Positions 10,094-12,107 of a stretch of DNA of 64,000 nt are shown piece by piece. The notes under the pieces are model-generated. The model did no database searches. It saw only the letters and a program-made list of their open reading frames with translations, and had not been told where the DNA came from. The stretch is from Aceticella autotrophica (GTDB taxonomy: Bacteria; Bacillota; Thermoanaerobacteria; Thermoanaerobacterales; Thermoanaerobacteraceae), in assembly GCF_017357865.1 (NCBI RefSeq), contig NZ_CP060096.1, forward strand, positions 1,847,001 through 1,911,000, written 5' to 3'. Each line of letters begins with the position of its first letter. Positions within the stretch are counted from its first letter, which is position 1. A program made the position numbers and the translations under genes.

Positions 10094-10633
10094 TTAGACG
10101 GTAGGTTCTATAAGTCCGTATTTCCCGTCCTTTCTTTTATACACAACAGAGAAATCCTCTGTATCTGAATTAGTAAATACAAAGAAATTATGCCCCAAAA
10201 GGTTCATCTGTAATATTGCCTCTTCTACAGACATGGGCTTAATAAAGAATTTTTTCGTCTTTACAACCTCGAATTCTTTTGTTTCTTCACCGTTTTCCCC
10301 TATGTATTCCTGTGGGATATCAAACCTTATGGAATCATTAGCAAAGCTGTTTTTAATCTTTGTCTTATATTTCATTATCTGTCTTTCTATCTTTTCAGCA
10401 ACACTATCAATCGATACATACATATCATTACTGACTTCCTCTGCCCTGAACAGCATTCCCTTAAAGGGGATAGTTGCTTCGGCAATCTGGCTGTTCTTCT
10501 GTACGCTCAGTACCACCCTTGCCTCGGTATCTTTTGTAAAAAACCTTCCAATCTTATTAAGGCTCTTTTCAACCGCTGTCCTGAGCCCATCAGTTATTAC
10601 CATGCCGTTTTTCCCACTAACTGTTATCTTCAT
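10094..10633 (-). CDS. hpf: ribosome hibernation promoting factor, long form
   Basis: Binds the 30S decoding site and, through its C-terminal domain, pairs ribosomes into inactive 100S dimers under starvation. 179 residues. The N-terminal S30AE-type domain (1-100) contains MKITVSGKNGMVITDGLRTAVEKSL and the ATIPFKGMLFRAEE strand. The C-terminal dimerisation domain (about 120-179) contains MSVEEAILQMNLLGHNFFVF and the closing YKRKDGKYGLIEP. ATG at 10631-10633, with AAAGGGG 9 bases upstream; an in-frame TTG three codons earlier abuts the ribosome site and is rejected. Single-gene unit with its own terminator; the DnaA-box cluster lies about 100 bases upstream of the start. Confidence 0.95.
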   Translation of the reverse strand: MKITVSGKNGMVITDGLRTAVEKSLNKIGRFFTKDTEARVVLSVQKNSQIAEATIPFKGMLFRAEEVSNDMYVSIDSVAEKIERQIMKYKTKIKNSFANDSIRFDIPQEYIGENGEETKEFEVVKTKKFFIKPMSVEEAILQMNLLGHNFFVFTNSDTEDFSVVYKRKDGKYGLIEPTV

Positions 10634-10731: not shown

Positions 10732-10784
10732 TGTTGATAATGTGGAAAAAAAATTGTGGATAATGTGGATAAGTCTGTTGATAA
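10732..10784 (+). promoter_or_regulatory. cluster of tandem DnaA boxes
   Basis: Five 9-mers in the same orientation: TGTTGATAA (10732), TGTGGAAAA (10741), TGTGGATAA (10755), TGTGGATAA (10764) and TGTTGATAA (10776). TGTGGATAA is the exact complement of the consensus DnaA box TTATCCACA and occurs twice. The boxes lie between the hpf start and the zinc-ribbon gene. No dnaA, dnaN or rpmH is nearby, so this is a DnaA-binding regulatory or titration site rather than the usual origin. Binding is inferred from sequence only. Confidence 0.75.
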
Positions 10785-10899: not shown

Positions 10900-11097
10900 T
10901 TAGTTACCAGCTCCAAAAGGCTTCCTTTCTCTTCTGGAGTCAAACTGGTGGTTTCTTTGTTTTTTCGCATCCCTGCATGCCTTACACCTTACAGGTGCAT
11001 TCTGAAAACCCTTTTCTGCGTAAAATTCCTGTTCGCCTGCCGTCCATACAAACTCCTTGCCGCAGTCCTTGCAAACCAATGTCTTATCCTGATACAT
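10900..11097 (-). CDS. small zinc-ribbon protein
   Basis: 65 residues of the probable zinc-ribbon (zf-trcl) type. Four cysteines in two CxxC pairs, CKDCG near residue 9 and CKAC near 38, should bind one zinc ion. Between them lies FVWTAGEQEFYAEKGF, and the C-terminal half is basic (KKQRNHQFDSRRERKP), suggesting nucleic-acid or ribosome contact. The function of the family is not established. ATG at 11095-11097 with GAGGGG ten bases upstream; a GTG six codons upstream overlaps that site and is less likely. Monocistronic between the flagellar operon and hpf, in the same direction. Confidence 0.8.
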   Translation of the reverse strand: MYQDKTLVCKDCGKEFVWTAGEQEFYAEKGFQNAPVRCKACRDAKKQRNHQFDSRRERKPFGAGN

Positions 11098-11230: not shown

Positions 11231-11254
11231 AAAAGCGTTTTTTAACGCTTTTTA
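11231..11254 (-). terminator. terminator of the flagellar operon
   Basis: AAAAGCGTT and AACGCTTTT pair around a short TTTT loop and continue into T residues on the minus strand. The hairpin includes the last codons and stop of the FliT/FlgN-like gene. Confidence 0.8.
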
Positions 11255-11715
11255 TCCACAAAATAGCTTTCAGGGGAATAATATTTCATATATTCAATAT
11301 ATCCGCTTTTCTGATTTGATAATTCAACCAACTTGGTTTCAGCCTTTTTATATACGATATTTAAAGCTTCAATATTTTTATCGTCTTTTTCCTTTATCTT
11401 ATCCATGATTGACTTAATATCAATTAGAACCCCTTTTAATCTGCTTATATCTGATGAAGGATTATTGAAAACAACATCAAAAATGCTGTCAATCTTTTTT
11501 TCTTTTTTAAAGGAATTATATGCAGGAACAAAATTTACATCCAGCATATCAACCCTTTCAATTATTCCTTGCTTCTCTGACAATATCTTCTTAATATCAT
11601 CAAGATTTTGCGAACTTATAGCAATACCAAGCTTTTCTGAAAGTTCTAAAAGCATCTTCAGTAAATTTAATTTGTTATGAGCAATCTCTATAAGGGTTTT
11701 AATTTCATACGACAT
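11242..11715 (-). CDS. FliT/FlgN-like flagellar chaperone (putative)
   Basis: 157 residues, almost entirely helical and charged, with heptad-like spacing (LLKMLLELSEKL; IKSIMDKIKEKDDKNIEAL), which suits a small export chaperone. It is immediately downstream of fliS in a flaG-fliD-fliS operon, where Bacillus has fliT, so the role is inferred mainly from position. FliT or FlgN proteins bind the cap protein FliD or hook-associated proteins before export. ATG at 11713-11715 with GAAGGG nine bases upstream; an in-frame TTG three codons earlier directly abuts that site. It starts five bases after the fliS stop. The sequence itself is too diverged for firm naming. Confidence 0.6.
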   Translation of the reverse strand: MSYEIKTLIEIAHNKLNLLKMLLELSEKLGIAISSQNLDDIKKILSEKQGIIERVDMLDVNFVPAYNSFKKEKKIDSIFDVVFNNPSSDISRLKGVLIDIKSIMDKIKEKDDKNIEALNIVYKKAETKLVELSNQKSGYIEYMKYYSPESYFVDKKR

Positions 11716-11720
11716 AAATT

Positions 11721-12107
11721 TCAACCCTTCGCATATACTTTACTGCGTATCCTGTTCAGTGCCTCAGACCACGCTTCTTTTAAATCCTTAACAAGTTCCT
11801 TGACTTCATCAAGAATACTTATATCTTTTTTCAGATTCGCCTCGATCAGCCTTCTCATGATATAGTCATACATGCTGTATAGGTTTTTTGATATATCATA
11901 TTCCATGTCAAGTGTGGCAGAGAGCTCCGATACAATATCCTGTGCCCTTATTATGCTGTTATTTGCCCTTTCAAAGTCTTTGTTTTCAATGGCAATTTTG
12001 GCTTCCTCAGTAAAACGAAGTATTCCATTGTATAACATCAAGACAAGCTCTTCCGGACTTGCTGTCAAAATAGAATTCTCTTTATACTGCTGATAAGGAT
12101 TAATCAT
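11721..12107 (-). CDS. fliS: flagellin export chaperone FliS
   Basis: 128 residues. Keeps flagellin unfolded-like and prevents premature polymerisation before type III export. Family features are the N-terminal PYQQYKENSILTASPEELVLMLYNG, a four-helix layout, and the C-terminal helix with LVKDLKEAWSEAL. ATG at 12105-12107 follows AAGGGGGAT with 7 bases between. A longer in-frame start would overlap fliD and has no better site. It begins 19 bases after the fliD stop, so the two are co-transcribed. Confidence 0.93.
   Translation of the reverse strand: MINPYQQYKENSILTASPEELVLMLYNGILRFTEEAKIAIENKDFERANNSIIRAQDIVSELSATLDMEYDISKNLYSMYDYIMRRLIEANLKKDISILDEVKELVKDLKEAWSEALNRIRSKVYAKG

Follow-up and report, generated by a model that had tools for sequence, protein, structure and literature searches.

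Clusters of DnaA boxes outside oriC are, as such, already known. In Bacillus subtilis they were reportedly described as DnaA-box clusters (DBCs) by Okumura et al. in 2012, and the control of initiation outside oriC has, to our knowledge, been little studied in Clostridia. In Escherichia coli, the extra-oriC DnaA-box loci datA, DARS1 and DARS2 occupy conserved chromosomal positions and influence initiation. Two reviews state that joint deletion of six B. subtilis clusters leads to early initiation (PMC5295017, PMC13220808), and the former describes the titration effect as modest and as strong only with the six-fold deletion (PMC5295017). The B. subtilis gcp (tsaD)/ydiF 3′ region is among the eight strongest DnaA regions of that organism in vitro and among the most ATP-selective, with a Kd of 0.15 uM for DnaA and a 16-fold ATP preference at 55 nM (PMC4447404).

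Here we examined a cluster in a 64-kb window (the whole stretch of DNA analysed, contig positions 1847001-1911000), which belongs to a single chromosome of 2,267,618 bases (2.27 Mb) with dnaA at its start. As in the B. subtilis DBCs, the boxes are intergenic and outside oriC, and a second conserved site shares its gene position with the gcp (tsaD) 3′-end region. On the other hand, no DnaA region retrieved for B. subtilis is located at hpf (yvyD), whereas the comFC-hpf site described here has a three-box core conserved across many Clostridia. The E. coli loci differ in sequence architecture and depend on IHF (and Fis). The sda/yqeG and ywlC promoters of B. subtilis, at which DnaA acts as a transcription factor, likewise have DnaA boxes upstream of a gene, but in our case the boxes keep no constant distance from the downstream gene. 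The bipartite Firmicute oriC, with a DnaA-trio in the dnaA-dnaN gap, also contains an abutting head-to-tail box pair; unlike it, the hpf cluster has no DnaA-trio and neither dnaA nor dnaN nearby. Our literature search, which had partial coverage, did not turn up any account of this locus or of its being conserved in Clostridia.

Layout and rarity of the box cluster

The following features were identified in the window, box numbers running along the hpf strand:

10094..10630, minus strand: hpf, long-form ribosome hibernation promoting factor (PF02482, E 3e-24, and PF16321, E 2e-29), the downstream neighbour
10732..10740, minus strand: box 5, TTATCAACA, 1 mismatch to the consensus, outside the widely conserved core
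10741..10749, minus strand: box 4, TTTTCCACA, 1 mismatch, outside the widely conserved core
10755..10763, minus strand: box 3, TTATCCACA, exact, abutting box 2 (9-bp pitch)
10764..10772, minus strand: box 2, TTATCCACA, exact, 12 bp from box 1
10776..10784, minus strand: box 1, TTATCAACA, 1 mismatch, 5′ member of the conserved core
10755..10784, minus strand: the conserved three-box core, TTATCAACA-GAC-TTATCCACA-TTATCCACA
10900..11097, minus strand: zf_Tbcl zinc-ribbon gene (PF13451, E 2e-26), the upstream neighbour, with its 3′ end towards the cluster
11242..11724, minus strand: FlgN-like gene (PF05130), the end of a flagellar gene run upstream

Read along the hpf strand, the cluster (10732-10784, upstream of hpf) is TTATCAACA-GAC-TTATCCACA-TTATCCACA-(5 nt)-TTTTCCACA-TTATCAACA, with start-to-start pitches of 12, 9, 14 and 9 for successive boxes 1-5. 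A first-pass annotation had described five head-to-tail DnaA-box-like 9-mers within 53 bases, two of them exact, between hpf and a zinc-ribbon gene and far from replication genes, and had likened them to the Bacillus-type clusters outside oriC. This description was borne out, with all five 9-mers found at these positions on the minus strand, Pfam matches agreeing on both neighbours and dnaA at a distance of 410 kb (18% of the chromosome). The likeness to the Bacillus type also stood, as the cluster combines several boxes, a short intergenic stretch, a location outside oriC and conservation. A further exact box, on the plus strand at 11252-11260, overlaps the 3′ end of the FlgN-like gene beside a terminator-like hairpin.

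Such density was not reproduced in 100 dinucleotide-preserving shuffles of the whole 64-kb window, where the maximum number of TTWTCMACA sites per 53 bp was 1 in 99 shuffles and 2 in the remaining one, against 5 in the real window. Pattern searches of the AT-rich host genome returned about 350 TTWTCMACA sites, and three close ones occurred in only three places, the hpf cluster included. The other two (contig 473420 and 1104409) were rejected as they lie inside paralogous coding sequences encoding ...VDNVDN..., and thus the hpf cluster is the only intergenic one of this density. Where VDNVDN codons produce triple boxes, the match is a coincidence of coding, and box counts can be misled by it. 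The genome-wide count of exact boxes proposed in the first-pass annotation gave 50, and the reversed control pattern 56; exact boxes are thus not over-represented, and it is their clustering which is unusual.

The boxes of the host oriC are weak, and no exact consensus box was found there. The forms TTATTCACA, TTATGCACA and TTATACACA are present upstream of dnaA, and the dnaA-dnaN gap contains an abutting ATATCAACA/TTATCAACA pair followed by the DnaA-trio tract TTACTATTACTACTACTA. The host DnaA has the DHTT box-recognition signature. Judged by consensus match, the hpf cluster would probably be the best DnaA target of the genome.

The three-box core at hpf and tsaD

We searched 299 genomes of the phylum with the pattern TTATCAACANNNTTATCCACATTATCCACA, allowing up to 3 mismatches and using the reversed pattern as control, a plain search which was chosen over a sequence-only covariance model as the clearer of the two. 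The core was present in 146 of the 299 genomes and in 102 of 210 genera, while the reversed control gave 0 throughout. Among the matches listed, 57 genomes had both the core and hpf; in 48 of these the two share a strand, with the core upstream, and in no linked case was it downstream of hpf or on the opposite strand. The distance from the core to the hpf C-terminal domain in these 48 listed genomes was at most 1.3 kb in 32, 2.7-3.7 kb in 13 and 8-9.4 kb in 3. Working outward from hpf, we gathered 80 hpf loci by protein similarity and scored 79 of them over 700 bp upstream; the core (up to 2 mismatches) was detected in 19 and in none of 1,580 shuffled upstream sequences.

The core was found at hpf in taxa as distant as Thermoanaerobacter, Geosporobacter, Maledivibacter, Herbinix, Lachnospira and Ca. 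Desulfopertinax, with strand and the spacing of 12 and 9 constant among core-bearing hpf loci. In the alignment, the box columns were invariant or nearly so and the flanks variable, a contrast that supports, although it does not strictly define, an extra-oriC cluster. The first-pass annotation had named presence at the same locus in relatives as the test on which the cluster should stand or fall, and it recurs at hpf across many distant Clostridia. The core was not at hpf in several relatives, namely Thermoanaerobacterium, Thermosediminibacter and Ammonifex. One group of Clostridia (L038-L051) has further boxes at fixed offsets from the core (-31 direct, +56 and +158 reverse), suggesting a larger putative nucleoprotein site of about 200 bp.

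The gene order at the hpf site is flgN, zf_Tbcl or (usually) comFC, then the core, then an amino-acid ABC transporter, a cspA-like leader or nothing, followed by hpf and secA. In 17 loci, the gap between the 3′ end of the upstream gene and the core measures 9-340 bp (median 81), against 175-3,300 bp (median 503) between the core and hpf. The transporter often stands between the core and hpf, as it does in Thermoanaerobacter wiegelii and others, and the core is kept; in the Thermoanaerobacter bin L036, most of the transporter is gone, with an apparent ATPase remnant that suggests its loss, and the core is still present. That the core persists with or without the transporter argues against its being retained on account of a position at the hpf promoter. 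Among L034, L035, L036, L181 and L182, the transporter operon between core and hpf is present in some and absent in others. The mean distance of the site from dnaA was 0.17 chromosome length against 0.25 for a uniform distribution (8 genomes, P about 0.06), which is a trend only.

In six relatives, the interval from the upstream gene, which encodes FlgN or ComF, to the core contains a raiA (ModT) RNA. No raiA RNA was detected in the 64-kb window, nor was there a match in the host genome, a search for which the control was uninformative. This RNA was rejected as the conserved element because the window lacks it and because conservation of the cluster does not depend on its presence. DnaA goes unmentioned in the ModT paper.

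Most of the other core copies (n=20 fetched) map to the tsaD (gcp) 3′ end and have the opposite orientation to that gene. From a sample of 16 named Bacilli, Ammoniphilus and two Halobacillus also have the core at the tsaD 3′ end. In the host, this end carries a weaker, partly decayed group:

contig about 1843038-1843126 (L183:1328-1413): tsaD box group, ATATCCACA, TTATCCACA, TTTTCCACA and TTATCCTCA, 3.9 kb left of the window and 14.7 kb from the hpf cluster

As B. subtilis DnaA binds at gcp/ydiF, the presence of the core at tsaD links it independently to DnaA.

Probable replication control and competing explanations

We consider it somewhat better than an even bet (probability about 0.6), from sequence and by analogy, that this is a conserved extra-oriC DnaA-box cluster which sequesters or modulates DnaA and thereby tunes initiation. 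Because the arrangement recurs here in many distant Clostridia, it is probably a real replication control site and not an hpf switch. The first-pass annotation had proposed a specific coupling of DnaA to hpf, and a broader form of this idea is that the cluster is a DnaA-responsive operator of the downstream unit (hpf, or the intervening ABC transporter) that couples hibernation-factor expression to replication status. It agrees with the core being upstream of and co-oriented with hpf in 48 of 48 linked cases among the matches listed, and with the B. subtilis DnaA repressing or activating several genes beside its clusters (PMC4447404), although yvyD, the B. subtilis hpf, is not named in that paper. 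A weak promoter-like site also overlaps box 4 in the window, but such matches are common in this AT-rich region. A DnaA-regulated hpf promoter would be marked by boxes at a constant distance from the hpf start or promoter, and this was not found; instead, anything from 175 bp to 3.3 kb, with genes intervening, separates the core from hpf, while the distance to the upstream gene stays short. In Thermoactinomyces and Laceyella (L072:811-840, L080:872-901), the core is reversed and lies between ABC transporter genes upstream of hpf, and the same core at tsaD sits at a gene's 3′ end. Thus, the specific DnaA-hpf coupling was not supported in the form proposed, given a core that is tight to the upstream gene, survives an intervening ABC operon and recurs at tsaD. 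An operator is rather doubtful in our view; DnaA control of hpf is possible, as a second choice after a role in replication.

The abutting box pair resembles the pair beside the DnaA-trio in the host oriC, as might be expected of a secondary or relic replication origin. However, no DnaA-trio run, by which an origin would be recognised, was present within 300 bp at any of 41 sites (0/41), the host dnaA-dnaN gap does have one, and normal oriC elements sit around dnaA; we rejected a secondary origin as very improbable. DnaA is identified as the ligand from sequence evidence, so the sites might be bound by another protein, e.g. a nucleoid or segregation protein, but two exact and several near-consensus boxes, together with a tsaD twin whose B. 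subtilis counterpart is proven to bind DnaA (PMC4447404), make this improbable. Chance or a mutational artefact would draw on the abundance of TTWTCMACA sites in an AT-rich genome; the shuffles, the reversed-pattern controls, the conserved synteny and the recurrence of the cluster at this locus in distant relatives leave it next to no credence.

Proposed role and meaning for Clostridia

Under the replication-control reading, the fixed core, with a weaker box, 3 bp and two abutting strong boxes, would nucleate cooperative DnaA binding, and DnaA would be bound intergenically, beside the 3′ end of the upstream gene. The cluster would withhold a pool of DnaA from the origin, perhaps preferentially as ATP-DnaA by analogy with B. 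subtilis gcp/ydiF, and its duplication after initiation may help to prevent premature re-initiation. We infer DnaA binding in the host, the effects on titration or nucleotide state and the effect on timing; by analogy, the cluster is best read as functionally like datA.

Perhaps the two syntenic DnaA loci of Clostridia (comFC-hpf and tsaD), built on one three-box core and with the tsaD one older than the split from Bacilli, form a conserved initiation-control system, in which occupancy of the comFC-hpf site may also couple hpf, and raiA (ModT) RNA in genomes that have it there, to the state of replication; we offer this tentatively, as a possibility that we do not favour over its opposite. With a recognisable core placed at two defined loci, binding and deletion experiments have precise targets. 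The DnaA core may explain why sequence in the intergenic region between raiA RNA and hpf is constrained. Titration of the initiator, which the weak B. subtilis phenotype did not settle, becomes testable in a second large group of bacteria.
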